Of a DNA stretch of 64,000 nt, positions 3,878 through 17,541 are shown one piece after another (the stretch's first letter is position 1; each line of letters starts with the position of its first letter). The notes under the pieces were generated by a model. That model was given only the letters and a program-made list of their open reading frames with translations. It did not search any database and had not been told where the DNA came from. The stretch covers positions 1 through 64,000 of the forward strand of contig NZ_JACHJJ010000010.1 in NCBI RefSeq assembly GCF_014203605.1, in the 5' to 3' direction. The position numbers were made by a program, and so were the translations under genes. This DNA is from Thiemannella venezuelensis (GTDB lineage: Bacteria; Actinomycetota; Actinomycetes; Streptosporangiales; Streptosporangiaceae).

Positions 3878-5737
3878 TCACACAACGCGCAGGGCAAGTA
3901 TCACGATCTCGTCCCACACTCTTCCGCCGGAGAACGCGTGCCGGTCGTCCTCGACCGCCTTGACGACGGTGGCCGGAGCCTGCGAGACGCACCGCGCCAG
4001 GACGTCGGCCAGCCGGCCCTCGCCGTACGCCTCGCCCTGCTCGTTGCGCGAGGTCACCAGTCCGTCGGAGTAGAAGAGCAGCGTCTGGCCGGAGGCCATC
4101 GTGATCTCCTCGCCGAACGTCTCCCCGTCGGGGGAGATGCCCAGCGGTACTCCGCCCCCGGCGGTGAAGCGCACCGTGCCGTCGGGCTGGAGCAGCGCCG
4201 CGGGGTGGTGGCCCGCGCTGGCCATCCTGATCCGCCGCCCCTTGACGAACCCGGCGACGGCCATCACGAACATGCCGGTGCGCTGGGCGGCCAGGGCCTG
4301 GTTGAGCTTGCGCAGGGCCTCTCCGGGATCCCCCTCCCAGACGCTGAGCACGCGCAGCCCGTTGCGGACCAGGGCGCTGACGGAGGCGGCCTCCTCGCCC
4401 CTGCCCGCGGCCCCGCCGAGCGCGAAACCCCACCCGCCCGTGACCGGGAAGACGTCGTAGAACTCGGCGCCGACCGGGCTGGAGCCCGCGTGGTAGATGG
4501 CCGCCGCCTCGAACCCGGGGATGTCGGGCAGGGCGCGCGGCACCACGCTGGTACGGAGCGCGTCGGCGGCCTGGGAGCTGTCCTGGAAGCTGCGCCGGGC
4601 CCGCAGCGCCAGCCCGAGGTGGGCGCCGATCTCCTCCATCAGGCCCAGATCGGCCAGGGTCAACGGCTCGCGGTCGCGCGACCGCAGCAGGGTCAGGGAG
4701 CCCGCGGGGCCGCCCTCCCCCTCGATCGGCACGCACAGCACGGAGGCGGCGCCCATCACCCGCAGCAGCGGGGGCCCGTCGGGGACGCGGCCGAGCAGCG
4801 TCTCGTCCTCCAGCATCTCGTGGACCACACCGGAGCTGCCCGTCAGCACGTGGGCGACGAGCGGCGCGGACAGCGGGCCGAGGTTCTCCACCAGGCGGAC
4901 CAGCTCGCCCACCGGCTTGTCCGCGGGACCGATCACGCAGGCCCGCCGGGGTGTCCCGTCGCGGACCACGTCGGCGATCACCCAGTCGGCGAGCTCGGAC
5001 GCCAGCAGCCGCGAGGCCCGGGTGACGGTCACCGGCTGGTGCAGGCTGTCCTCGTCCAGCAGCAGGCGGGTCATCCGGGACAGCAGCTCCTGGCGGCGCG
5101 CGGCGGCGAGGAGCAGGGCGGCGTCGGAGCGGTCGACCGGCCCCGTGGGACCCTCGGTGACCTGCGCCTCCACCGGCAGGATCAGGACCGCGGTCATCTC
5201 GTGCGGTTCGCCCGGCATGGTCAGCCGGGTCAGGGCCAGTTGCACGGTGTGCGCGCGCCCCTGGTGGGCCAGGCGGGTCTGGAAGGTCACCGTCCGGCCG
5301 CCCTGCTGCACGGAGGTGAGATGGGAGCGGAACGCCGCCCGCCGGGAGACGTCGACGAACAGCGCGAACGAACGGCCGATCAGATATCCCGCCGGGCTGC
5401 CCAGCATCCGGGAGGTCTCCGCGCTGATCCGCCGGACCGTCCCCGAGCCGTCCAGCACCGCCACCGGGACCGGGAACGTCTTGAACACCTGCCGCAGCAG
5501 TTTCAGCTCCCGCTGCGAACCGCTCTCCCGCCCGCCCGAGCGCCTGGGCGTCCGGCGCAGCTCGTGCAGGGCGGAGTCCAGCAGCTCGCGGGCGGTGTCC
5601 AGCTCCGCGAGGGCCGCGTCGAGTGTGGAGCGCGGGTCCGCGGGGTAGGCGGAGCGCGTCTCGCGCAGCGAGGAGACCCTGGCGGCCAGCGCACTCAGCG
5701 CCTGTTCCAGGGCCGGAAGGCCAAGGGCTTCGGTCAA
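3878..5737 (-). CDS. PAS-GAF-PP2C (SpoIIE/RsbU-type) serine phosphatase
   Basis: 619 residues. A short coiled N-terminus is followed by a PAS domain (about 85-195, VPVAVLDGSGTVRRI), a GAF-like domain (about 225-395) and a C-terminal SpoIIE phosphatase (about 405-619, with GFALGGAAGRGEEAA, ASAGHHPAAL and LLFYSDGLV). RsbU-type phosphatases dephosphorylate STAS-domain antagonists, which releases a stress sigma factor. Such a STAS protein is encoded at 6699. The first phosphatase aspartate site reads FALGGAAGRGEEA, where active enzymes usually have a metal-binding D (GDVxGxG); the absence of D here could weaken activity. Start is TTG 5737 with GAGG 7 bases upstream. Confidence 0.85.
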   Translation of the reverse strand: MTEALGLPALEQALSALAARVSSLRETRSAYPADPRSTLDAALAELDTARELLDSALHELRRTPRRSGGRESGSQRELKLLRQVFKTFPVPVAVLDGSGTVRRISAETSRMLGSPAGYLIGRSFALFVDVSRRAAFRSHLTSVQQGGRTVTFQTRLAHQGRAHTVQLALTRLTMPGEPHEMTAVLILPVEAQVTEGPTGPVDRSDAALLLAAARRQELLSRMTRLLLDEDSLHQPVTVTRASRLLASELADWVIADVVRDGTPRRACVIGPADKPVGELVRLVENLGPLSAPLVAHVLTGSSGVVHEMLEDETLLGRVPDGPPLLRVMGAASVLCVPIEGEGGPAGSLTLLRSRDREPLTLADLGLMEEIGAHLGLALRARRSFQDSSQAADALRTSVVPRALPDIPGFEAAAIYHAGSSPVGAEFYDVFPVTGGWGFALGGAAGRGEEAASVSALVRNGLRVLSVWEGDPGEALRKLNQALAAQRTGMFVMAVAGFVKGRRIRMASAGHHPAALLQPDGTVRFTAGGGVPLGISPDGETFGEEITMASGQTLLFYSDGLVTSRNEQGEAYGEGRLADVLARCVSQAPATVVKAVEDDRHAFSGGRVWDEIVILALRVV

Positions 5738-5862
5738 TGCTCGTCCTCGTCGCCGGCCGGGAGGGACTGGTCCCGTCGTAGACGCTACGCCACCCGGTGA
5801 AGCTTATCGATGTGCGGTCAGATAGTGATTAAGTTATCCATACGGGGAAGGGATCGCATGAC

Positions 5863-6579
5863 ATGGATATGGTGACGCCCGTTCTCGCCCGTGACCTCGC
5901 GGCCCTCGGCAGGGTCAGCGAGGAGACGTCGAGCGAGAGCGTACTGCGCGGGCTCACCGCCACCCTCGCCGGCGGCGTCCCCGGCTGCGCCGGCGGTACC
6001 GCCGAGCTCTGGCAGCAGGAACGGCTGGTGGTCTCCGCCTCGCACAGCGAGCTCGTCGTCCTCGTCGACAGCGAGAGCGAGCTCGGCGAAGGCCCCTCGG
6101 CGGAGGCCCGGGTCAGCGGCGGCCACGTGATCCTCCCGGACGTGCTGCGGGACCTGCGCTGGCCGGACTACGCGGCCATGGCGGTCCGCTGCGGGGTCCG
6201 CTCGGTCCTGGCGGTACCGATCACGGTCGAGCGCGCGGTCCTGGTCCTCGGCCTGTACGGCGTGCGCCCCGGCGTCTTCGCCGCCCGGGAGGTGCCCTCG
6301 CTGGCCGGCATGCTGGCCGAGCAGGTGACCGTGGCCCTGGAGAACATGTGGGACTACGACGAGGTGCGGACCGACGCGGCCCAGATGCAGGAGGCGCTGG
6401 CCGGCCGGGCCGTCATCGACCAGGCCAAGGGCATCATCATGAAGTCCAGCGGATGCTCCGCTGAGGCCGCCTTCGACGAGCTGCGCCGGATCTCCCAGCA
6501 CCACCAGGTGAAGGTGGCCGACCTGGCCAGGCTCCTGGTCGACGAGCACCAGCGCAACCAGGCCGGGAAGCGGGGCTGA
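5863..6579 (+). CDS. GAF-ANTAR domain RNA-binding antiterminator-like protein
   Basis: 238 residues. The GAF domain (about 5-155) is followed by an ANTAR domain (about 165-225: RAVIDQAKGIIM, CSAEAAFDELRRIS, KVADLARLL), the three-helix RNA-binding module of transcription antiterminators. Actinomycete GAF-ANTAR proteins are usually soluble and orphan of a histidine kinase. A GAF ligand or partner would control ANTAR binding to dual hairpins in target mRNAs. GGGAAGGGA lies 9 bases before ATG 5863. It is divergent from the phosphatase gene and convergent with the STAS gene, so it is a single-gene unit ending at hairpin 6626-6657. Confidence 0.9.
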   Translation: MDMVTPVLARDLAALGRVSEETSSESVLRGLTATLAGGVPGCAGGTAELWQQERLVVSASHSELVVLVDSESELGEGPSAEARVSGGHVILPDVLRDLRWPDYAAMAVRCGVRSVLAVPITVERAVLVLGLYGVRPGVFAAREVPSLAGMLAEQVTVALENMWDYDEVRTDAAQMQEALAGRAVIDQAKGIIMKSSGCSAEAAFDELRRISQHHQVKVADLARLLVDEHQRNQAGKRG

Positions 6580-6625
6580 CCGGCCGCCCGGTGAGGGGGG
6601 AGACCGCTCTTCCGGGCCGGAGGGA

Positions 6626-6657
6626 CACCGGGCGCCGTGTGAAGAGGGCGCCCGGTG
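6626..6657. terminator. Bidirectional hairpin between GAF-ANTAR and STAS genes
   Basis: Perfect 11-bp stem CACCGGGCGCC / GGCGCCCGGTG with a 10-base loop, placed between two convergent genes. Confidence 0.6.
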
Positions 6658-7273: not shown

Positions 7274-8050
7274 ATGTCTGTTCAGGCAATCGAACTCAAC
7301 GACATGACCGCCGAGGAACTCCTCGCCGAGATGGTCCTGCCTGAGGTCTCCGAATACCGCGCAGAGCGCCTGCGCGAGCGCATCGTCGAGATGCACCGCC
7401 CGCTGGCCATGGAGATCGCCCGTCGTTACCGCTACCGGGGCGAACCCCTGGAGGACCTCCTCCAGGCCGCGTACGTGGGCCTGATGAAGGCCATCAACGG
7501 CTACGACCCGACCCTCGGCCACGCCTTCCGCGGCTACGCCGTCGTCACCATGACCGGCGAGGTGAAGCGCCACTTCCGCGACCGCACCTGGGCCATCCGG
7601 GTGCCCCGCGTCTACCAGGAGCGCAGGGCCGAGCTGAACCGGCTGGTCTCCGACCTCAGCCAGGACCTCGGCCGCGCTCCGACGGTCGCGGAGCTCGCGG
7701 CGAAGATGAACATCACCGAAGAGGACGTCCTGCTCACCCTCGACGCCTCGGCCGCCTACAGCGCGCTCTCGCTCGACGCGCCGCTCGGCACCGACGACGA
7801 CGCGGCCGCGCTGGGCGACGTCATCCCCGACGAGGACGACACGCTGGCCGTACTGGTGGACCGGGAGGCGGTCAAGCCGCTGATCGACAAGCTCCCGTCC
7901 CGTGAGAAGAACATCCTCCTGCTACGTTTCTTCGGCAACATGACCCAGGCCGAGATCGCGGCCGAGTTCGGCATCTCCCAGATGCACGTCTCCCGCATCC
8001 TCCGCAAGGTGCTCGACCAGCTCCGCGAGGAGCTCGTCGCCGAATGCTGA
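7274..8050 (+). CDS. RNA polymerase sigma factor, SigB/SigF/SigG (group 3) type
   Basis: 258 residues with regions 2, 3 and 4. Region 2 contains LEDLLQAAYVGLMKAI and GHAFRGYAVVTMTGEVKRHFRD, the signature of the SigB/F stress family. Region 3 starts IRVPRVYQ, and region 4 holds the helix-turn-helix TQAEIAAEFGISQMHVSRILRK. GGGAG lies 6 bases before ATG 7274. These factors read GTTT-N-GGGTAT promoters, and one such promoter lies at 2766-2792. The RsbW-like protein just downstream (8170) is the natural anti-sigma candidate. Confidence 0.93.
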   Translation: MSVQAIELNDMTAEELLAEMVLPEVSEYRAERLRERIVEMHRPLAMEIARRYRYRGEPLEDLLQAAYVGLMKAINGYDPTLGHAFRGYAVVTMTGEVKRHFRDRTWAIRVPRVYQERRAELNRLVSDLSQDLGRAPTVAELAAKMNITEEDVLLTLDASAAYSALSLDAPLGTDDDAAALGDVIPDEDDTLAVLVDREAVKPLIDKLPSREKNILLLRFFGNMTQAEIAAEFGISQMHVSRILRKVLDQLREELVAEC

Positions 8051-8169
8051 ATACGCCGCCCGTTATGGGGCATCGGAGTCGGCGGAGTGCTAGGTGGCAT
8101 AGAGTGCGTTTCGATGAGCCCCGGGCGCTCAAGGCGGCGAGGCCGCGGGACAGGGGAGGCGGATCACGG

Positions 8170-8625
8170 GTGAACGAGGACGGTGCTCGTCCGGCTCGCT
8201 CCCGGACGGATGGCGACAGCCCGTCGGTCTCCCCTGTCCGGGGATTCCTGGCCGAGCTCACCTTCTGCCTGCCCGACCTGCCCGACGTGCGTGACTTCGC
8301 GGCCGCCCACGCCCTGCGCGGCGGGATGGCCCAGGAGCGCCTGGCCGACTTCCTCGTCGCCGTCAACGAGGTGGCCACCAACGCCGTCACCCACGGGCAC
8401 GTCACCGCCAAGGCACTGCTGCGCATGTGGACGACCAGCGACTCCCTCGTCGTGGAGGTCCGCGACGAGGGACGCTGGGCCCCGCAGGCCGTCCCCGGGC
8501 AGACGCCGCCCGCTCCCTACGCCACCAGCGGCATGGGGCTCTGGGTGGCCCGGATGGTCAGCTCCGCCATCGACTTCCGGACCGGCATCGACGGGACGGT
8601 CGTCACCATGTCCTTCACGGTCTGA
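8170..8625 (+). CDS. RsbW-like anti-sigma factor serine kinase (HATPase)
   Basis: 151 residues forming a single GHKL ATPase domain. The N-box is AVNEVATNAVTHGH, then VVEVRDEGRW, and the G-box is YATSGMGLWVARMVS. RsbW proteins bind their sigma factor and phosphorylate a STAS antagonist. The GTG at 8170 is chosen because GGGGAGG (8152-8158) precedes it; the open frame extends back to 8044. It lies 119 bases after the sigma gene on the same strand and ends 28 bases before the NADH dehydrogenase gene. Confidence 0.85.
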   Translation: MNEDGARPARSRTDGDSPSVSPVRGFLAELTFCLPDLPDVRDFAAAHALRGGMAQERLADFLVAVNEVATNAVTHGHVTAKALLRMWTTSDSLVVEVRDEGRWAPQAVPGQTPPAPYATSGMGLWVARMVSSAIDFRTGIDGTVVTMSFTV

Positions 8626-8653: not shown

Positions 8654-9979
8654 ATGACCAATCCTCCCCGCATCCTGATCGTCGGCGGCGGCTACGTCGG
8701 CATGTACACGGCCCTGCGGCTCCAGCGCGGGCTCCGCCCCGGAGAGGCCCGCGTCACCGTCATCGACGCCGACTCGTACATGACCTACCAGCCCTTCCTC
8801 CCCGAGGCGGCGGCGGGCAACGTCGAGCCCCGGCACGTCGTCGTCCCCCTGCGCAAGGTCCTGAACAGGTGCGAGATCCTCAACGGCTGGGTGGTCGGCG
8901 TCGACCCGCAGGCCCGCACCGTCGAGATGCGCCCCCACGACGGACCGCCCCGCCTCCTCGGCTACGACCTGCTCGTCCTCGCCCCCGGCTCCGTCTCGCG
9001 GACCCTGCCCATCCCCGGCCTGGCCGAGTGCGGCATCGGCTTCAAAACCGTCGAGGAGGCCATCCACCTGCGCAACCACGTCCTCGCCCAGCTCGACCTG
9101 GCCGCCTCCACCACCGACGAGGCGGTCCGCGCCAGAGCCCTCACCTTCGTCTTCGTCGGCGCGGGCTTCGCCGGGGTCGAGGCCCTGGCCGAGCTGGAGG
9201 ACATGGCCCGCGACGCCTGCCGCTACTTCCCGTCCGTGGACCCCGCGGACATGCGCTGGCTCCTGGTCGAGGCCACCGACCGCATCCTGCCCGAGGTCGG
9301 GCCCGAGATGGGCCGCTGGACACTGGAGCAGCTCCGCGCCCGCGGGATCGACGTGCGCCTCGGCGTGCGCCTCAAGTCCGCCGAGGACGGCCACGTCGTC
9401 CTCGACGACGGCACCGAACTCGACTCCTCGACACTGGTGTGGACCGCCGGGGTCAAGCCGCACCCCCTGGTGAGAGCCAGCGGCCTCCCCCTGGACGACA
9501 GGGGCCGGATCAGGGCCACCGCCGAACTCCTCGTCGAGGGCTCCACCACCGAGTTCACGGCCGGGGACTGCGCCGCCGTACCGGACCTGACCCGGCCCGG
9601 CGAAATGTGCTCGCCCAACGCCCAGCACGCCGTACGGCAGGCCCGCACACTGGCCGCCAACGTGCTGGCCACGCTCAGGGGCACGGAGCGCAGGCCGTAC
9701 CGGCACGCCTACGCCGGCTCGGTCGCCAGCCTCGGCCTGCACCGGGGCGTCGCGCAGATCTACGGCCGCAAACTGCGCGGGCCACTGGCCTGGTTCATGC
9801 ACCGCACCTACCACCTGTCGCGGGTGCCGACCCTGAACCGGAAGGTCCGCGTGCTGGTCGACTGGACCCTCGCGCTGCTCTTCCGCCGCGACATCACCTC
9901 GCTCGGCGCGCTGGCCCACCCCCGCCAGGAGTTCGAGTTCGCGGCCCGGCCCGACCCGGCCCGGCCGGACGCCGGGTGA
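8654..9979 (+). CDS. ndh: Type II NADH dehydrogenase (NDH-2-like NAD(P)/FAD oxidoreductase)
   Basis: 441 residues with two Rossmann motifs. The FAD-binding ILIVGGGYVGMYTALRL is at about residue 7 and the NADH-binding FVFVGAGFAGVEALAEL at about 165. A second FAD contact TAGDCAAVPDL is at about 310. The motif YQPFLPEAAAGN near residue 55 is typical of actinobacterial NDH-2. The enzyme passes electrons from NADH to menaquinone at the inner face of the membrane without pumping protons. The C-terminal 80 residues are basic and could anchor it peripherally. ATG 8654 has AGGGG upstream. With a 28-base gap it probably shares a transcript with the anti-sigma gene, which would link respiration to the stress module. 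Confidence 0.85.
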   Translation: MTNPPRILIVGGGYVGMYTALRLQRGLRPGEARVTVIDADSYMTYQPFLPEAAAGNVEPRHVVVPLRKVLNRCEILNGWVVGVDPQARTVEMRPHDGPPRLLGYDLLVLAPGSVSRTLPIPGLAECGIGFKTVEEAIHLRNHVLAQLDLAASTTDEAVRARALTFVFVGAGFAGVEALAELEDMARDACRYFPSVDPADMRWLLVEATDRILPEVGPEMGRWTLEQLRARGIDVRLGVRLKSAEDGHVVLDDGTELDSSTLVWTAGVKPHPLVRASGLPLDDRGRIRATAELLVEGSTTEFTAGDCAAVPDLTRPGEMCSPNAQHAVRQARTLAANVLATLRGTERRPYRHAYAGSVASLGLHRGVAQIYGRKLRGPLAWFMHRTYHLSRVPTLNRKVRVLVDWTLALLFRRDITSLGALAHPRQEFEFAARPDPARPDAG

Positions 9980-10148: not shown

Positions 10149-10178
10149 GGGGGCGCCGCCCTGCCGGGCGGCGCCCCC
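10149..10178. terminator. Strong bidirectional hairpin between convergent genes
   Basis: Perfect 13-bp stem GGGGGCGCCGCCC / GGGCGGCGCCCCC with loop TGCC, between ndh (ends 9979) and the leftward small membrane gene (ends 10214). The rest of 9980-10213 shows no gene. Confidence 0.75.
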
Positions 10179-10213: not shown

Positions 10214-10399
10214 TCACCTCCTGCGGCGCCAGTTGCCCCCGCGCCACCCGGCCGTGCCGACGCCCGCCTGGTGCAGGGCGAGCAGGAGCAGTCCGAGAAG
10301 CAGGAAGGTCGTGGCGGAGACACCGGCTCCGAGGCTGGCGTCGAGAAGGTCGAGCAGCAGGCCGAGGCCGAACACGATGGCGGCGGCGATGGCGAGCAT
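10214..10399 (-). CDS. Small two-helix membrane protein
   Basis: 61 residues. Two hydrophobic stretches (about 2-20 and 28-47) flank a short loop, and the tail is basic (RGGNWRRRR). Function unknown. GAAAGAGGTGACC precedes ATG 10399, an excellent ribosome site that overlaps the stop codon of the gene before it (3-base gap), so translation is coupled. It is the last gene of a three-gene leftward operon. Confidence 0.8.
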   Translation of the reverse strand: MLAIAAAIVFGLGLLLDLLDASLGAGVSATTFLLLGLLLLALHQAGVGTAGWRGGNWRRRR

Positions 10400-10402
10400 G
10401 GG

Positions 10403-11149
10403 TCACCTCTTTCCGGTTGACGTGACGGGCAGGCCCAGCAGCTCCTCCAGCGTCGACCGGTAGTCGCGCAGGGCCGTACGGAGCCGCTCGGTGTCGTTGT
10501 CGCCGCCGTCCTTCCAGAGAGCCTGGAGCTCGGCGGCCCGGGTCTCCAGAGCCGTCCGGATCGAGGCCGACAGCTCGTCGAGGAGGGAATGGGCGCGCTC
10601 CACCGCGTCGCGGGGGTCGTCCACGAAGCCCACCTGGACCTCCTGCCAGCGCCGCCGTACGTCCTCGGGATCCCGGTCGAACAGCGGCGTCCGCGCGGCG
10701 TGCTGGGGTGCGGGGTCCGGGACCGCGGCCGGCGGGCCCCCGTGCGCCGGGTCCGACGGGCCGGCCGGGTGTTCCGGCCGGTCGCCGGGGCCGGCGTTCT
10801 CCAGGTCGGCGTGTTCCGGAGCCGAGGGGTCCCGGTCCGCGTGGACCGGTCCGGTCCCCTCCGCGTCCGGAGGCACCGGCCGGTCGTCGAGATCCGCACG
10901 CTGAGGGAAGGAGACCCGATCCGCGTGCTCCTCCGGCACGGGACGGGCGGCCTCGGCGAGGTCCGGGTCGGTCGCGGCGGCCGTCTCCCGGCCGGGCACG
11001 CCACCGGGACGTCCGGACGGCTCCCCGGAGCCGGGGCGCTCCGCGTCGCCGCGCTGCGGCGGGATGTTCGGCTGCGTGTCCTCGCCGGGGGAGCCGTCGC
11101 CCGGATGGGCCGGGCGGCCGTACACCAGCCTGTCGGGTCGGTCGTTCAT
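10403..11149 (-). CDS. Disordered-linker protein with a C-terminal WxEVQxxFVD helical domain
   Basis: 248 residues. The first about 150 are rich in P, G, D and E and look disordered. The last 85 form a predicted helical domain starting DPEDVRRRWQEVQVGFVD and ending YRSTLEELLGL. The same pattern occurs in the preceding gene (WTEVQERFVDAPGFAV and YRALFQELLE), so the two are paralogues sharing one domain, one soluble and one membrane-anchored. I do not know its function. ATG 11149 lies 8 bases past the upstream stop, with coupled translation. Confidence 0.75.
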   Translation of the reverse strand: MNDRPDRLVYGRPAHPGDGSPGEDTQPNIPPQRGDAERPGSGEPSGRPGGVPGRETAAATDPDLAEAARPVPEEHADRVSFPQRADLDDRPVPPDAEGTGPVHADRDPSAPEHADLENAGPGDRPEHPAGPSDPAHGGPPAAVPDPAPQHAARTPLFDRDPEDVRRRWQEVQVGFVDDPRDAVERAHSLLDELSASIRTALETRAAELQALWKDGGDNDTERLRTALRDYRSTLEELLGLPVTSTGKR

Positions 11150-11156
11150 CACCGGG

Positions 11157-11834
11157 TCACCGTCCTCGGGAGTCGCGGGGGGCGTTCCGCTCGTTCTGAC
11201 CGGCCCGCTCGTCCTCTCCCCGCACGGGGCGGGCGTCCTCGCGGCGCGGACCGGCATGCCGCGGGGCGTGGTGGTCGCCGTTCACCGCGTGAGGCTCCTC
11301 CGCCTCCAGCAGCTCCTGGAACAGGGCGCGGTAGTGCACCATGGCCTGCCGGAGCTCCTCGGTGGAGGCCGCCTTGCGCACGGCCCGGCCGCTGATCTCG
11401 TGGGCCTGCCGGTAGTGGTCGAGGGTACGGCCGTGCGCCACCGACAGGTCGGCGATCCGCTGCTCGAAGTCGTCGGTCGGATAACCCCGCTCGGCCATCA
11501 CCGCGGTCACCAGGTGATCGGCTTCCGTCACCGCGAACCCGGGGGCGTCCACGAAGCGCTCCTGGACCTCGGTCCACTTCTTCGCGTAGGCCTCGCGCGT
11601 CTCCGAGTCGAGCGGGCGGATGTCGAGGGAGCTGAAACGCTGCTCGCGGGCGAGGAGCTCCTGCTCCGCCTCGCGCCGGTTCTCGCGTTCCTGCAGGGTG
11701 CGTTCGTATTCGGGGCCGAATCGTTCGCGGAGCCGGTGCCGGCGTCGCTGCTGCAGTACGACGTAGCCGACTGCGATGATCGCCGCCACCGCCACCACGA
11801 TGACGACCACCCAGATCAGGGTCTCGGCGGACAT
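11157..11834 (-). CDS. Single-pass membrane protein with WxEVQxxFVD helical domain
   Basis: 225 residues. An N-terminal transmembrane helix (about 6-28) is followed by a charged helix rich in R and E (29-70), probably a cytoplasmic coiled segment. Then comes a domain (about 75-180) with KKWTEVQERFVDAPGFAVTE and YRALFQELLEAEE. The C-terminal 40 residues are polar and disordered. It is the first gene of the operon with its paralogue at 10403 and the small membrane protein at 10214. Its start at ATG 11834 is supported by GGAGG 6 bases upstream. No enzyme motif is visible; a scaffold or stress-envelope role is only a guess. Confidence 0.75.
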   Translation of the reverse strand: MSAETLIWVVVIVVAVAAIIAVGYVVLQQRRRHRLRERFGPEYERTLQERENRREAEQELLAREQRFSSLDIRPLDSETREAYAKKWTEVQERFVDAPGFAVTEADHLVTAVMAERGYPTDDFEQRIADLSVAHGRTLDHYRQAHEISGRAVRKAASTEELRQAMVHYRALFQELLEAEEPHAVNGDHHAPRHAGPRREDARPVRGEDERAGQNERNAPRDSRGR

Positions 11835-11903
11835 GTGCGCCTCCGGTCGTGTGAGCGGTTGTCACAGCCCGCTGCCCCGGAGAACCATTCCGAAACCGCC
11901 CGC

Positions 11904-12425
11904 TTACTCCGGTATGACCGTGGCCTTGTCCTCCGCGGCCTTGTCCTCCGCGGCCTTGTCCTCCGCGGCCTTGTCCTCCGTGGCCGCGCCCTCCGCGCCC
12001 TCCCTCCCGGCGACGGCGGTCATCGCCTCCGCGAGAACCGCCTCCACCAGGGATCCGCCCGCCGCGGCGGGGACCTCGTGGAACCCGCGCCCGGAGTCGT
12101 AGGCGATGTCCAGCCCCGCCGCGACCAGCCGGCCGGCCCAGCGCAGCGCGGTGTTCAGCTTCTCCGCGGGGATCGCCCGCCCCTGGGCGACGGACGACAG
12201 GTTGCGCAGGTTCGTGGCCGGGCCGGACTGGCTGTGCGCGCGGTCGAGCTTCCACGGGATCGCCCGCGAGTGGTCGAGCATCGGCTTGGACAACCCCGCG
12301 GCCCGCTTGGCCTGCAGGATCCCCGACTCGCTCACCCCGAACCTGGCGGCCAGCTCGGCGTTCGACAACCCCCGCCCGGCCAGCCGCCGCAGCTCCTCCT
12401 GGTCGATCAGCGCCCTGCGCCCCAC
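11904..12425 (-). CDS. Helix-turn-helix protein with acidic/basic pentapeptide tail
   Basis: 173 residues. The N-terminal helix-turn-helix (about 8-45: LRRLAGRGLSNAELAARFGVSESGI) resembles resolvase- or sigma-like DNA-binding segments. The middle (60-130) is unassigned. The tail repeats ATEDK-AAEDK-AAEDK-AAEDK from a 15-bp tandem DNA repeat. GTG 12425 has GAGGG 5 bases upstream. A palindrome ATGATC-AC-GATCAT lies 17 bases upstream, possibly its own operator. I cannot assign a family with certainty. Confidence 0.65.
   Translation of the reverse strand: MGRRALIDQEELRRLAGRGLSNAELAARFGVSESGILQAKRAAGLSKPMLDHSRAIPWKLDRAHSQSGPATNLRNLSSVAQGRAIPAEKLNTALRWAGRLVAAGLDIAYDSGRGFHEVPAAAGGSLVEAVLAEAMTAVAGREGAEGAATEDKAAEDKAAEDKAAEDKATVIPE
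11926..11985. repeat. 15-bp tandem repeat, four copies
   Basis: TTGTCCTCCGCGGCC repeated at 11926, 11941, 11956 and 11971 (the last with one change). It encodes the AAEDK tail of the helix-turn-helix gene. In-frame repeats like this expand and contract easily. Confidence 0.9.
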
Positions 12426-12552: not shown

Positions 12553-12629
<77 letters not shown>

Positions 12630-12830: not shown

Positions 12831-13127
12831 TCAGCAGCCTTCCAGGCCCCACCGTCCCATGACGGGGGTGTCCTTCGAGTGCAGGATCCCCGACGTGTAG
12901 GGCTGGACGATCTTGCACCCGCCCCAGGTGCGTTCTATGCCGGTGCCGATCCACGCCCGCATCCTGAACGAGTTCGTGCTGCCGCAGTTGCGGTAGCCGA
13001 CGTACTGCACGCGGTTCGACACCCAGGAGCTCGCACCGCACGGCTCGGCGTGGGCCGCCCCGACCGGGATGGTGAGCGTTCCCGCTACCAGCGCGGCAAC
13101 GGCGACTGCCCGGATGGCTCGTTTCAT
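12831..13127 (-). CDS. Small secreted cysteine-containing protein
   Basis: 98 residues. A Sec signal peptide (MKRAIRAVAVAALVAGTL, cleavage after AHA at about residue 27) precedes a mature part of about 70 residues with four cysteines (EPCG, RNCG, GGCK, final C) that could form two disulfides. The centre RMRAWIGTGIERTWGGCK is rich in aromatic and basic residues. Family unknown. A second secreted four-cysteine protein follows upstream at 13217 on the same strand. GAGAGACC precedes ATG 13127. Confidence 0.8.
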   Translation of the reverse strand: MKRAIRAVAVAALVAGTLTIPVGAAHAEPCGASSWVSNRVQYVGYRNCGSTNSFRMRAWIGTGIERTWGGCKIVQPYTSGILHSKDTPVMGRWGLEGC

Positions 13128-13216: not shown

Positions 13217-13594
13217 TCAGCTGCTCACCTCGATGCTCATGCGCGGACAGGTGTCGAGCCGGCCGTAGTAGCGGTTGGTGAGCCCGGTGACCGTCCAGGT
13301 CCCCGCGCCGGATCCGCGGCGCACGACCTTGCCGTTCGTGGAGTCCACGAGCTTCCATCTGATCTCGCTGGGGTCGCAGATGGGGTTGGCGATATAGGAC
13401 TCGAACGTCCGGACGGTCACCGAGCCGGTGTTCGGGTTGGCCGCGATCGAGTCGGTGGAGCAGGTGGTCCAGCCGTAGAAGACGGTGCACTCGTCGATGC
13501 CGGCGGAGGCCGGGGTCGCCGTGCCCACCGCCAGGAGAACGGCGGCGCTCACGGTGGCGAAGCCGGTCGCGCAGAGTTTTCGTCCGATGCTCAA
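13217..13594 (-). CDS. Small secreted four-cysteine protein
   Basis: 125 residues from a TTG at 13594, chosen because AGGGAGGG lies 5 bases upstream and a signal peptide then begins at once (SIGRKLCATGFATVSAAVLL, cleavage after ASA at about residue 32). The mature part has four cysteines (DECT, TTCS, PICD, DTCP) and looks beta-rich: TGSVTVRTFES, GAGTWTVTGL, MSIEVSS. The alternative is an upstream GTG in the same open frame (to 13726). Function unknown. It is divergent from the STAND-WD40 gene, with a 9-bp inverted repeat between them. Confidence 0.7.
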   Translation of the reverse strand: MSIGRKLCATGFATVSAAVLLAVGTATPASAGIDECTVFYGWTTCSTDSIAANPNTGSVTVRTFESYIANPICDPSEIRWKLVDSTNGKVVRRGSGAGTWTVTGLTNRYYGRLDTCPRMSIEVSS

Positions 13595-13696
13595 AAGAGC
13601 CCTCCCTGCAGAGACGTGGTGGTCGTGGTGTTTTTCGGGCAAGCGCGAGCTTCCGTCTGACTCGCCCGTGTAGCGATATGTGTAGTGCTTGTTGGG

Positions 13697-13740
13697 TTGT
13701 GCGGTTTCGGGGTGACCGGTGCACAATCAACACCGCACAA
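13697..13740. promoter_or_regulatory. Inverted repeat in the divergent intergenic region
   Basis: Perfect 9-bp inverted repeat TTGTGCGGT (13697-13705) / ACCGCACAA (13732-13740), between the leftward secreted-protein gene and the rightward STAND-WD40 gene. It could be a regulator site or an RNA structure. Confidence 0.4.
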
Positions 13741-13785: not shown

Positions 13786-16700
13786 ATGCCGCGTCCCGAG
13801 CGTCCGGTCGATCCGGAGGCAGGGGCCCTCCAGCGATTCGCGTGGGAGCTGCGCAAGCTGCGGGAGCAGGCCGGCAACCCGGGGTACCGGGAGCTGTCGC
13901 GACGGGCGCACTACGCGCCGACCACGCTGGCGCAGGCGGCACGCGGGGAGGCGCTGCCCAGCCTGGCGGTGGTGCTGGCCTACGTCCGGGCCTGCGGCGG
14001 GGACGCCGGTCACTGGGAGGAGCGCTGGCGGTGCGTGGCCGAGGAGGCCGGGTTCGCCGCACCGGCCGATGACGGCCGGGACGACCGGTCGCCGTATGTC
14101 GGTCTGGCGGCCTACCAGGCTGAGGACGCCTCCCGCTTCCACGGCCGGGAGAGCCTGGTCGACGACCTGATGGCCCGGCTGGACCGGCGGCGTCTGCTGG
14201 CGGTGTGCGGCGCTTCCGGGGCGGGCAAGTCGTCGCTGCTGCGCGCGGGGCTGCTGCCCCGCGCGTGCGCCCAGGGGTGGCGTCCGGTGCTGATGACCCC
14301 GGGCGCGCATCCGCTGCTGGAGTGGGCGCAGAGCCTGGCCGAGGCGAGCGGCGTCCCGGCGGACGAACTCCACGCCGCGTTGCGAGACGATCCGGCCGGG
14401 CTCCCGGTGCTCCCCGAGCTGCTGCTGATCGTGGACCAGTTCGAGGAGGTCTTCACTCTCTGCCGGGATCGAGGGGAGCGGGCGGCCTTCATCGCGGCAC
14501 TGCCCGCTCTGGCGGGCGCGGGGCGCGTCGTGCTGGGGGTGCGGGCCGACTTCTACGCCCACTGCACCGACCACCCCGAACTGGCCGCGGCGCTGACCGG
14601 GGCCCAGGTGCCGGTCGGGCCGATGACCACTGAGGAGCTCCGGCAGGCCGTCACCCGGCCCGCCCAGGAGGCCGGCTGCGTCGTCGAAGGCTCCCTGCTG
14701 GCCGCGATCATGGCTGATTCGGCCGGCCAGATCGGTGCGCTGCCGCTCATCTCGCACGCTCTGGCGGAGACCTGGCGCCGCCGCCGCGGCACCACCCTGA
14801 CCTTGACCGGCTACCAGGCGGCGGGCGGCGTCCACGGCGCCCTGGCCAAGACCGCCGAGACGGCGTACGAGGCCCTCACCCCGGCCCAGCAGGCCCGCGC
14901 CCGCGAGGTGTTCGTACGGCTGACCGCGTTCGGCGAGGGCACGGACGACACCGGCCGCCCGATCTCCCCCGCCGAGCTGGACCCCCTCGACCTCGACACC
15001 CGTACCGTCCTCGACCACTTCAGCCGGGTCCGCCTGATCACGCTCGGCGCGGACACGGTGCAGATCTCGCACGAGGCGCTGATCAGGGCCTGGCCCCGGC
15101 TGCACCAGTGGCTGACCACCGAGCGGGAGGGCCTGCGCGTGCATCGCGGGCTCACCCAGGCGGCCCAGGCGTGGGCGGAGCTGGAGCACGACCCCGGCGC
15201 GCTGTACCGGGGCGCCCGTCTGGTGATCGCCCGCGAATGGGTGAGCCGCCAGGAGGCCGGGGGCCGGTACGGCGGGGACGCCGGTGCGCGCCGCAGCGTG
15301 CTCAACACGCTGGAACGGGCCTTCCTGCACGCCTCCATCGCGCAGGAGGACACCGAGCACACCAGGGCGGTGCGCCGCAGGCGCCAGTTGCGTGCGCTCG
15401 CGGCCGGCCTGGCGCTGCTGCTGGCGGTCTCCACGGCCACGGGGGTGTTCGCGACCGTGAAGTGGCGCGAGGCCGTCGAGGCGCACCGGGTGGCGCTGTC
15501 GCGCCAGCTCGCCACGCAGGCGCTGTACCTGGCCGGCTCCCGGCCCGACACGGCCATGCCGCTCGCGGTGGAGGCGCACGCCCTGGCGCCGACCACCGAG
15601 GCCCGCAGCGCTCTGCTCAGCATGACGCCGCACCTCGCGCGCCGCGGCACGCTCACCGGCCATGCGGGTGCGGTCTCCCAGGTGCTGTTCACTCCCGACG
15701 GCCGCACTCTCGTCAGCGTCGGCCGCGACAGGAGCGTGCGTTTGTGGGATGTCCGCGGCGGTGCTCTGCTGGCCCGCCTGACCGGCCACGACACCTGGAT
15801 GAAGGCCGCGGCGCTCAGCCCGGACGGCCGCACCCTGGCCACCGGCGGCGAGGACGGCGTCCTGGTGTTGTGGGATGTGCCCGGCCGCGCCCGCATCGCC
15901 GCGCTGCCCGGCCACGACCGGCAGATCCGGGAGATCGCCTTCAGTCCGGACGGGCGCACGCTGGCCACCGCCAGTGACGATCACAGCGTGATGGTGTGGG
16001 ACGCGGCCCGGCATGTGCGCCTGCGCGCCCTCACCGGTCACCGGGCCGCGGTGCGCGGAGTGGCGTTCAGCCCGGACGGCCGTACCCTGGCCAGCGCCGG
16101 CGACGACCGGGCCGTGCTGCTGTGGGACCTGGCCCGGCAGGCGCCGCCGGTGCTGCTGGGCGAGCACCCCGAGACGGCCGCCGCCGTGGCGTTCAGCCCG
16201 GACGGCCGTACGCTGGCCAGCGCCGGCGGACGGGCCAGCGTGCAGCTGTGGGACGTGGCGCGTCGCACCCGGCTGGCCCGGCTCGGCCACGGCGAGGACG
16301 GGCAGGTCATCACGCTCGTCTTCAGCCCGGACGGGCGCACGCTGGCCGGCTCCGGGCACGACCCGACGGTGCTGCTGTGGGATGTGGCGCACCGGACGCT
16401 GCGCGGCCGCCTCACCGGTCACCAGGCCAACGTCTACACGATCGCCTTCGATCCGTCCTCCTCGATGCTGAGCAGCGCCGGCGAGGACGGCACGATCCTG
16501 CTGTGGGACCTCGCCCAGGCGAGCCTGGCGGGTCACGCCACCGCGGTCGCCGATGTCGCCTTCAGCCCGGACGGCCGCACCCTGGCCGGCGCGAGCGGCC
16601 GGCGCACCATGCTGTGGCACAGCGCCGACCGCACCTTGGCGGCCGTCCACGACGACCCCTCGCCGCAGGTGAACGCCCTGGCGTTCAGCCCGGACGGGCG

Positions 16701-17541
16701 CACGCTCGCCACCGCCGGCGGCATCGTCGGGCTGCCGTCCGTCGTCGCCGGCAGCGCGGTGACCCTGTGGCGCGACGGACGCGCCGCCCTCCGGCTCGAC
16801 GGACACACCGGCCCGGTGCTCGATGCGGTCTTCAGCCCGGACGGCCGGCTGCTCGCCACGGGCGGCGTCGATCGCACCGTCATCCTGTGGGACGCCGCCC
16901 GCGGTACGCGCCTGGCCGTGCTCACCGGCCACAGCCTGGCCGTCAACGGCCTGGCCTTCAGCCCGGACGGCCGGATCCTGGCCAGCGCCGGGCACGACCC
17001 CGCGATCATGCTGTGGGATGTGGCCACGCGCAAACCGCTGGCCGCGCCGCTGGTCGGCCACGGCGGGTGGGTGCGCACCGTCGCCTTCAGCCCGGACGGC
17101 CGCACGCTGGCCAGCGCCGGAGCCGATCGCACCGTGATGCTGTGGGATGTGGCGCGGCGCACCCGGCTGGCCACCCTGCCCGATCACGCCGACGCCGTCA
17201 CCGCAGGGGTGGCGTTCAGCCCGGACGGGCGCACCCTCGCCTTCACCAGCGGCAACCACACCATCACCTTGTGGGACCTGAGGGGCCGGCGGCTCTCGGC
17301 CCGTCTGAGCGGCCACACCCAGCCGGTGCAGGCCGTCGCCTTCAGCCCGGACGGCCGCCTGCTGGCCAGCGCCGGAGCCGACCAGGCCGTCATCCTGTGG
17401 CAGACCGACGCCCGGCGCTCGGCCGAGCACATCTGCGCCGTGCTCATCCGCGGCCTGGCCGAGGCGCAGTGGCGGCAGCACATCCCCGAGCGGCCGTATC
17501 CGCACACCTGCCCCCGGCCCGGCCCGGCTTCGACCCGCTGA
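13786..17541 (+). CDS. HTH-STAND NTPase-WD40 repeat protein
   Basis: 1251 residues. An XRE-like helix-turn-helix (about 10-75: LRKLREQAG, RELSRRAHYAPTTLAQAARG) comes first. An nSTAND1-type NTPase follows, with Walker A GASGAGKSS at about 143 and Walker B LLLIVDQFEEVF at about 210. Then comes a winged-helix-like region (HEALIRAWPRL at about 430), a hydrophobic segment (about 535-556) that may be a membrane helix, and 14 WD40 repeats from about 618. The repeats share FSPDGRTLASAG and LWD, enough for two seven-bladed propellers. STAND proteins are ligand-triggered switches that often assemble on binding. GGAGGTAGGAG precedes ATG 13786. No effector domain is visible, so signalling or regulation is more likely than killing. 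The repeats are near-identical DNA and prone to recombination. Confidence 0.88.
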   Translation: MPRPERPVDPEAGALQRFAWELRKLREQAGNPGYRELSRRAHYAPTTLAQAARGEALPSLAVVLAYVRACGGDAGHWEERWRCVAEEAGFAAPADDGRDDRSPYVGLAAYQAEDASRFHGRESLVDDLMARLDRRRLLAVCGASGAGKSSLLRAGLLPRACAQGWRPVLMTPGAHPLLEWAQSLAEASGVPADELHAALRDDPAGLPVLPELLLIVDQFEEVFTLCRDRGERAAFIAALPALAGAGRVVLGVRADFYAHCTDHPELAAALTGAQVPVGPMTTEELRQAVTRPAQEAGCVVEGSLLAAIMADSAGQIGALPLISHALAETWRRRRGTTLTLTGYQAAGGVHGALAKTAETAYEALTPAQQARAREVFVRLTAFGEGTDDTGRPISPAELDPLDLDTRTVLDHFSRVRLITLGADTVQISHEALIRAWPRLHQWLTTEREGLRVHRGLTQAAQAWAELEHDPGALYRGARLVIAREWVSRQEAGGRYGGDAGARRSVLNTLERAFLHASIAQEDTEHTRAVRRRRQLRALAAGLALLLAVSTATGVFATVKWREAVEAHRVALSRQLATQALYLAGSRPDTAMPLAVEAHALAPTTEARSALLSMTPHLARRGTLTGHAGAVSQVLFTPDGRTLVSVGRDRSVRLWDVRGGALLARLTGHDTWMKAAALSPDGRTLATGGEDGVLVLWDVPGRARIAALPGHDRQIREIAFSPDGRTLATASDDHSVMVWDAARHVRLRALTGHRAAVRGVAFSPDGRTLASAGDDRAVLLWDLARQAPPVLLGEHPETAAAVAFSPDGRTLASAGGRASVQLWDVARRTRLARLGHGEDGQVITLVFSPDGRTLAGSGHDPTVLLWDVAHRTLRGRLTGHQANVYTIAFDPSSSMLSSAGEDGTILLWDLAQASLAGHATAVADVAFSPDGRTLAGASGRRTMLWHSADRTLAAVHDDPSPQVNALAFSPDGRTLATAGGIVGLPSVVAGSAVTLWRDGRAALRLDGHTGPVLDAVFSPDGRLLATGGVDRTVILWDAARGTRLAVLTGHSLAVNGLAFSPDGRILASAGHDPAIMLWDVATRKPLAAPLVGHGGWVRTVAFSPDGRTLASAGADRTVMLWDVARRTRLATLPDHADAVTAGVAFSPDGRTLAFTSGNHTITLWDLRGRRLSARLSGHTQPVQAVAFSPDGRLLASAGADQAVILWQTDARRSAEHICAVLIRGLAEAQWRQHIPERPYPHTCPRPGPASTR

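Follow-up and report, generated by a model that had tools for sequence, protein, structure and literature searches.

The DNA analysed here is a 64-kilobase (kb) window from Thiemannella venezuelensis (contig NZ_JACHJJ010000010.1 of assembly GCF_014203605.1, positions 1 to 64,000), and our subject is a set of three adjacent minus-strand genes in it, P1, P2 and P3, which form a conserved operon without an assigned name. What is new here, beyond an earlier note on this DNA, is the regulation: a promoter of the SigB/SigH type lies upstream of P1, and judging from its sequence the operon is a SigB/SigH-group stress operon, a known kind, with proteins of a family that is absent from the libraries we searched. 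We lean, somewhat beyond an even chance, towards a general-stress operon whose products would come together at the membrane, on its cytoplasmic side, as a protective scaffold or cushion.

P1 (11157..11834, minus strand, 225 residues) is the membrane-anchored member. According to its open reading frame and an AlphaFold2 model, an N-terminal membrane helix is succeeded by a charged helix that carries the string RFGPEY, then by a helical domain (around residues 77-177) and by a tail predicted to be disordered. P2 (10403..11149, minus strand, 248 residues, or 284 if an alternative upstream ATG at 11257 is used) is the soluble member. Its reading rests on the open reading frame, alignments, a domain model and statistics on its arm: an acidic, Pro/Gly-rich stretch of about 150 residues, enriched in Pro, Gly, Asp and Glu and probably disordered, precedes an abbreviated P1 domain of three helices. 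P3 (10214..10399, minus strand, 61 residues), an open reading frame recovered in relatives by tblastn and by profile, has two hydrophobic helices and a basic C-terminus. The earlier note had described an operon with just these features, namely the membrane helix of P1, the arm of P2 and the paired helices of P3, and this description holds, with the gene order kept in relatives. The genes are closely packed. The ATG of P2 (for the 248-residue form) comes 7 nucleotides past the stop of P1, and the ATG of P3 comes 3 nucleotides past the stop of P2. The start of P2 is close to P1 in relatives as well, where the first start codon, counted from 30 nucleotides before the P1 stop, is at most 30 nucleotides from that stop in 78 of 80. 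Sequence and RNA folding also indicate a GC-rich perfect hairpin (10149..10178, no strand assigned), a possible terminator without a T-run, sitting between the convergent ends of P3 and of a gene for an NDH2-type flavoprotein.

Conservation was examined in 80 of 171 stretches confirmed as encoding relatives. These 80 loci come from Planomonospora, Planobispora, Streptosporangium, Nonomuraea, Microbispora and related genera, and the closest named one is Planomonospora sp. ID67723, at 90 % identity. P2 follows P1 on the same strand in every one of them, and P3 follows P2 on the same strand in 79 by tblastn, while a profile finds P3 in all 80. Whole-genome searches find P1 in 59 of 197 genomes of the class and in 53 of 296 genomes of a sample of the phylum. 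With one genome per genus in the window's own family, P1 is present in 29 of 41 and P2 in 26: both occur in 26 genomes, P1 alone in 3, P2 alone in none, and neither in 12. The co-occurrence that the earlier note had proposed as a check is thus strong.

The pair also travels further than the family. We looked at 26 further loci, 20 from genomes and 6 from plasmid records (two of them, L116 and L141, belong to the window's own family), and found an adjacent P2 in 19; it is absent in L112, L144, L145, L146, L149, L150 and L152. The only case outside the phylum among these loci, L112, is a plasmid of an alphaproteobacterium, Qipengyuania citrea, so that P1 is not confined to actinobacteria. In the plasmid records that we read, annotated copies of the pair carry the label 'hypothetical protein'. 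The more widespread unit is P1-P2, and P3 is confined to closer relatives: its profile finds it in only 1 of the 26 further loci, L116 of Nonomuraea gerenzanensis. In L146, from the same phylum, two P1-type genes stand in tandem (4992-5753 and 5813-6628) in place of P1-P2, which looks as if the pair had arisen by duplication of P1.

The evidence for the type of control starts with the site GTTTCG-N13-GGGCAG (11872..11896, minus strand), found by a strict motif scan and by conservation upstream of P1; 37 nucleotides separate its last base from the P1 ATG. The strict form, GTTTNN-N12-14-GGG[TCA]A, occurs once in the window when both strands are scanned, and this is the occurrence. In the 80 loci, which total 1.89 Mb with both strands counted, this form lies upstream of P1 in 56, with 21 matches elsewhere. 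A looser form, G..T-N14-18-GGG[TC]A, is present in 80 of 81 upstream regions (the window and the 80 loci), whereas 100 shuffles average 12.3 and never exceed 21; the sole region without it, L051, reads GGGAAG. We also counted upstream of 26 P1 genes taken from 24 loci outside the window's family. GTTT-N14-18-GGG[ATC]A precedes 8 of them, where shuffling gives a mean of 0.2 and at most 2; for the loose form with GGG[ATC]A the count is 15, against a shuffle mean of 5.3 and a maximum of 10.

These sites resemble promoters that have been described. The mapped promoters of the S. coelicolor SigB homologues are built alike; in several the -10 element is GGGCA-, and the set includes GTTTCG-N14-GGGCAT (SCO2026p) and GGGCAC (rrnEp2) (PMC8346170 Table 2). 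The motifs reported for sigma-H are GTTT[AC]-14.6-GGGTA in Actinoplanes and GTTT[CG][CG]-14.2-GGG[TC]A in Streptomyces (PMC11205660). The arrangement expected of this group, GNNT or GTTT, then 12-15 nucleotides, then GGGWA or GGGYA, close upstream of the operon, is what we see before P1. Taken as a prediction from motif and conservation, control of P1-P2-P3 by a stress sigma factor is well supported.

The same group can be followed through the company that the operon keeps. A narrower form of the motif, GTTTYG-N12-14-GGGYA, has 5 sites in the window's genome, the one before P1 included. One is 69 nucleotides upstream of a BrkB/YihY gene (L156, 1594-2592) and another is 35 nucleotides upstream of a CBS-domain gene (L157, 1052-1465), both elsewhere in that genome. 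In L136, a genome of the same class, BrkB, holin-X and DUF4235 genes all lie within about 3 kb of P1-P2, and these are families whose genes are among those most strongly raised on expression of Actinoplanes sigma-H (PMC11205660 Table 1). Streptomyces sp. NBC_00984 has the gene order DUF6131, P1, P2, CsbD. The operon thus resembles the SigB/SigH-group regulon of actinomycetes (PMC8346170, PMC11205660) in promoter type and spacing and, in one genome or another, in the company of BrkB/YihY, holin-X, DUF4235, CsbD and CBS-domain genes. It differs in that the P1 and P2 families match no gene named in the parts of those two papers that we used; control here is read from the sequence.

Several observations weigh against this view of the operon. 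The C permitted at the fourth -10 position is there because the window's own site was seen first, and the consensus of B. subtilis SigB has A or T at that position (PMC8346170). The 80 loci are close relatives, so their promoter sites are not independent. Among the 26 distant P1 genes, 11 do not have even the loose motif, Qipengyuania included, although several of the start codons are uncertain. The GTTTYG form is nearly matched in rarity by its reversed control (3 sites vs. 5), and of its 4 sites other than the one before P1, 2 are not followed by any clear gene. The sigma gene next to the operon, described below, was not seen within the sequence examined in 16 of the 80 loci, 13 of them with at least 6.4 kb downstream and 3 with less than 3.2 kb. 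The nine SigB homologues of S. coelicolor overlap in the promoters they use (PMC8346170), and proximity therefore does not identify the sigma factor of an operon. Finally, the narrow distribution of P3 means that one of the three components is not general.

The second line of evidence concerns what the operon encodes. The motif-bearing stretches of the two larger proteins are WTEVQERFVDAPGFAV in P1 and WQEVQVGFVDDPRDAV in P2, and both contain W-x-E-V-Q-x-x-F-V-D-x-P-x-x-A-V, the first of two motifs that the earlier note had read as common to them. The second, given as YR-x-L-x-x-E-L-L, needs correction: P1 has YRALFQELL and P2 has YRSTLEELL, and the form common to both is YRxxxxELL. Compared as single sequences by tblastn within the window's own locus, P1 and P2 are marginally similar (E-value around 1e-2). 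An hhalign comparison of their orthologue alignments gives 97.9 % probability, with an E-value of 3.5e-13 over 85 columns. The P1 alignment has 36 rows (35 of the 80 relatives, at less than 85 % mutual identity, plus the window's own), and the P2 alignment has 38 (37 of 45 domains picked at 80 % from the 80, plus the window's own); the same rows were used for AlphaFold2. Two blocks fall in register, W..(V)Q..FVD.P..(A/S)V..AD.L and TE.LR...(H/D/E)YR, and a profile built on either family also picks up the other family in distant genomes. P2 has no counterpart of the central segment of P1, RGYP..DFE.R..DLSV.H...YR.AH. The predicted structures differ in size, with seven helices in P1 (3-39, 41-68, 77-96, 98-116, 123-130, 135-152 and 158-177; mean predicted local distance difference test score, pLDDT, 83.4) and three in a 103-residue stretch of P2 (16-30, 34-68 and 75-93; mean pLDDT 81.4). 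At the level of profiles, P1 and P2 read as a true paralogue pair, as the earlier note had claimed.

The arm of P2 varies in length from 91 to 345 residues and is net negative in all 80 relatives. Hydrophilins are defined by a glycine content above 6 % and a hydrophilicity above 1. The window's arm, with 11.6 % glycine and a hydrophilicity index of 1.2, passes both numbers, as do the arms of 60 of the 80 relatives; 20 do not. The arm has these numbers in common with hydrophilins and other stress proteins of the late embryogenesis abundant (LEA) kind. Unlike them, P2 has a folded helical domain at its C-terminal end and a partner paralogue that is anchored in the membrane. For that second aspect the phage-shock systems offer a likeness, since PspA acts there with PspB/PspC, a cytoplasmic helical protein being recruited by a small membrane-anchored partner. 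The likeness is in the idea: no Psp family is among the Pfam matches listed, and the sharing of a domain between P1 and P2 is not a Psp arrangement. As for P3, tiny two-helix membrane proteins behind stress-type promoters are found elsewhere, such as DUF6131, DUF5670 and the small hydrophobic proteins exemplified by SCO6509, a SigB-dependent 'hydrophobic protein' (PMC8346170 Table 1). The DUF6131 gene of Streptomyces sp. NBC_00984 is upstream of P1-P2, and a gene with a sub-threshold DUF5670 match is upstream of the pair in L137. P3 matches neither model, and it comes after P2, not before P1.

Putting these elements together, we suggest that a stress signal would release a SigB-type factor from its anti-sigma, and that P1-P2-P3 would then be transcribed under a sigma factor belonging to the SigB/SigH group. 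That factor may well be the SigB/F/G-type protein encoded close by, together with its anti-sigma-like ATPase. Release and transcription are proposed because of the sequence evidence given above and because partner-switch stress systems are known. P1 and P3 would insert into the membrane, with the helical domain of P1 staying in the cytoplasm, held by the N-terminal helix. Soluble P2 may then dock on P1 via their common domain, so that its long arm, acidic and hydrophilic, comes to lie against the inner face, and in the closer relatives P3 may help to anchor or seal the assembly. The outcome would be a stress-induced, membrane-attached scaffold or cushion that guards the membrane or its proteins in osmotic, drying or envelope stress. 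That the products form a stress-induced assembly on the cytoplasmic side is probable. Docking and the protective outcome are putative, and we favor them because P2 depends one-way on P1 in the 41 family genomes.

The operon is of interest on several counts. The pair is spread through actinobacteria well beyond the window's family, yet nothing in the curated libraries that we searched matches it credibly. Placing it in a SigB/SigH-type regulon yields a role that can be tested, along with companion genes (BrkB, CBS, CsbD, DUF4235). And the design, an anchored and a soluble paralogue with a hydrophilin-like arm, suggests a simple route by which a disordered protective polymer could be brought to a stressed membrane.

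The genes around the operon raise a different possibility. In addition to what the earlier note described, neighboring sigma, anti-sigma and phosphatase genes accompany the operon. A sigma factor of the SigB/SigF/SigG family, a convergent neighbor, is encoded at 7274..8050 on the plus strand (TIGR02980, 275.3 bits, cut-off 234.35). It is followed at 8044..8625, also on the plus strand, by an anti-sigma-like ATPase with an HATPase_c_2 domain (PF13581, 70.8 bits, cut-off 27.4), which the NCBIfam RsbA and spIIAB models match only under their cut-offs. Both genes are near P1-P2-P3 in 64 of the 80 loci. A PAS-GAF-SpoIIE phosphatase-type gene (3878..5488, minus strand) recurs in 56 loci, and a GAF-ANTAR regulator (5863..6579, plus strand) in 63. 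P1-P2 could then be part of the pathway that controls the neighboring sigma factor, with P1 sensing the state of the membrane, P2 relaying it to the anti-sigma or to the SpoIIE phosphatase, and the operon under feedback from the sigma. Such an arrangement would agree with the presence of these genes within a few kb in 56-64 of the 80 loci, and with the operon having a promoter of that sigma class. But by visual inspection P1-P2 stand in other surroundings in other actinobacteria, P1 occurs without P2 in 7 of the 26 further loci (one of them the Qipengyuania citrea plasmid), and searches of P1-P3 found no partner-switch domain such as STAS or HATPase. We consider a signaling role rather unlikely. 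Autoregulation of the neighboring sigma gene by the same promoter was also considered and rejected, as the strict motif is not present upstream of 7274.

The earlier note had supposed a small envelope complex. The association with the membrane survives; an outward-facing sense does not fare well. Membrane helices in P1 and P3 and the conservation of the operon would suit an outward-facing complex of the cell envelope. However, the residues after the membrane helix of P1 are more positive than those before it in all 76 usable relatives (4 of the 80 were not usable), so by the positive-inside rule the shared domain of P1 should lie in the cytoplasm, and P2 has no signal peptide by visual inspection. 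An outward-facing complex is therefore improbable, and we keep to the cytoplasmic scaffold.

The domain was unfamiliar when first noticed, and it could have turned out to be a well-known family with a different role. We looked for such a family. P1, P2 and P3 give nothing above cut-off in Pfam, NCBIfam, PHROGs or PADLOC, and the PDB has no credible match either. When 21 diverse members of P1 are compared with Pfam, no family matches more than 2. For 38 P2 domains the commonest Pfam match is Apolipoprotein, in 8, where the window's member scores 17.5 bits against a cut-off of 90. We rejected this candidate, as well as Tom20 (TIGR00985) for P1 (E-value 0.00028, 20.7 bits against a cut-off of 163.55), since both look like charged-helix composition. 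In the PDB, the best E-values by sequence are 0.59 for P1 and 0.47 for its profile, neither of them convincing, and the best by Foldseek are 1.0 for P1 and 4.0 for the P2 domain. A literature search for the motif strings RFGPEY, FGPEYE and FGPEYD found no paper.

Structural comparison of P1 with VIA-align is less silent. The top match is 3mfn, of unknown function (Z 10.4, root-mean-square deviation, rmsd, 2.8, 105 aligned residues), followed by HEPN folds, designed bundles and others. HEPN proteins have the active-site motif Rx4-6H, and the question is whether P1 and P2 might be the active and inactive halves of a stress-controlled, membrane-tethered HEPN-like ribonuclease, with P1 cutting RNA at the membrane and P2 as its regulating paralogue. 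HEPN structures do recur (2hsb with Z 8.6, rmsd 3.3 and 108 aligned; 7ae9 with Z 7.7, rmsd 3.8 and 111 aligned), and P1 has R162-x4-H167, with the histidine in 104 of 108 loci read (some loci being the same genome twice). All 21 diverse members keep R162, and at the position of H167 P2 carries an acidic residue, D or E, in 87 of 94. On the other hand, helical bundles with Z below about 13 may share an arrangement only, and all P1 matches are within that range. There is no Pfam HEPN match, H167 is kept in just 13 of the 21 diverse members, and the HepT sequences used for comparison continue after Rx4H with a long stretch that looks helical by eye, whereas in P1 the motif sits in the last predicted helix. 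An hhalign comparison of P1 with HEPN/HepT gave no match, but its HEPN-HepT positive control failed too, and at least two of the chosen HEPN/HepT frames look wrong. All in all, we find a ribonuclease pair very hard to credit, in whole or in its division into active and inactive halves. Least credible of all is that P1 and P2 resemble each other by amphipathic-helix composition and not by descent, for although chance matches are common among helical proteins and the pairwise E-value is marginal, the profile-profile match, with its W..(V)Q..FVD.P and TE.LR...YR blocks in register, and the reciprocal recovery in distant genomes both speak against it.

The remaining genes around the operon are as follows. 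Between the sigma and anti-sigma genes and P3 lies the NDH2-type flavoprotein gene (Pyr_redox_2, NDH2_C; 8657-9979, plus strand), found in 34 of the 80 loci. On the other side, a gene at 11904..12425 (minus strand) encodes a protein without a Pfam or NCBIfam match, whose N-terminus we read as helix-turn-helix-like. In 79 of the 80 loci this gene precedes P1 on the same strand, and its stop is 7 nucleotides from the P1 promoter. Further along, tRNA-Pro(ggg) (12553-12629, plus strand), the sole tRNA that ARAGORN found in the window, adjoins small genes that are not conserved and is a possible insertion site. The small genes, 12831-13127 and 13217-13726 (minus strand), encode proteins in which visual inspection suggests signal-peptide-like stretches; neither matches Pfam or has a relative among the 80 loci, and they are apparently recent arrivals between the tRNA and a gene of the STAND type. 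The latter (13786-17541, plus strand) encodes a large protein, possibly for signaling or defense, that has an nSTAND1 nucleoside triphosphatase domain and a long run of WD40 repeats; its PADLOC match covers the repeats only, and tblastn finds matches to it in 2 of the 80 related loci.

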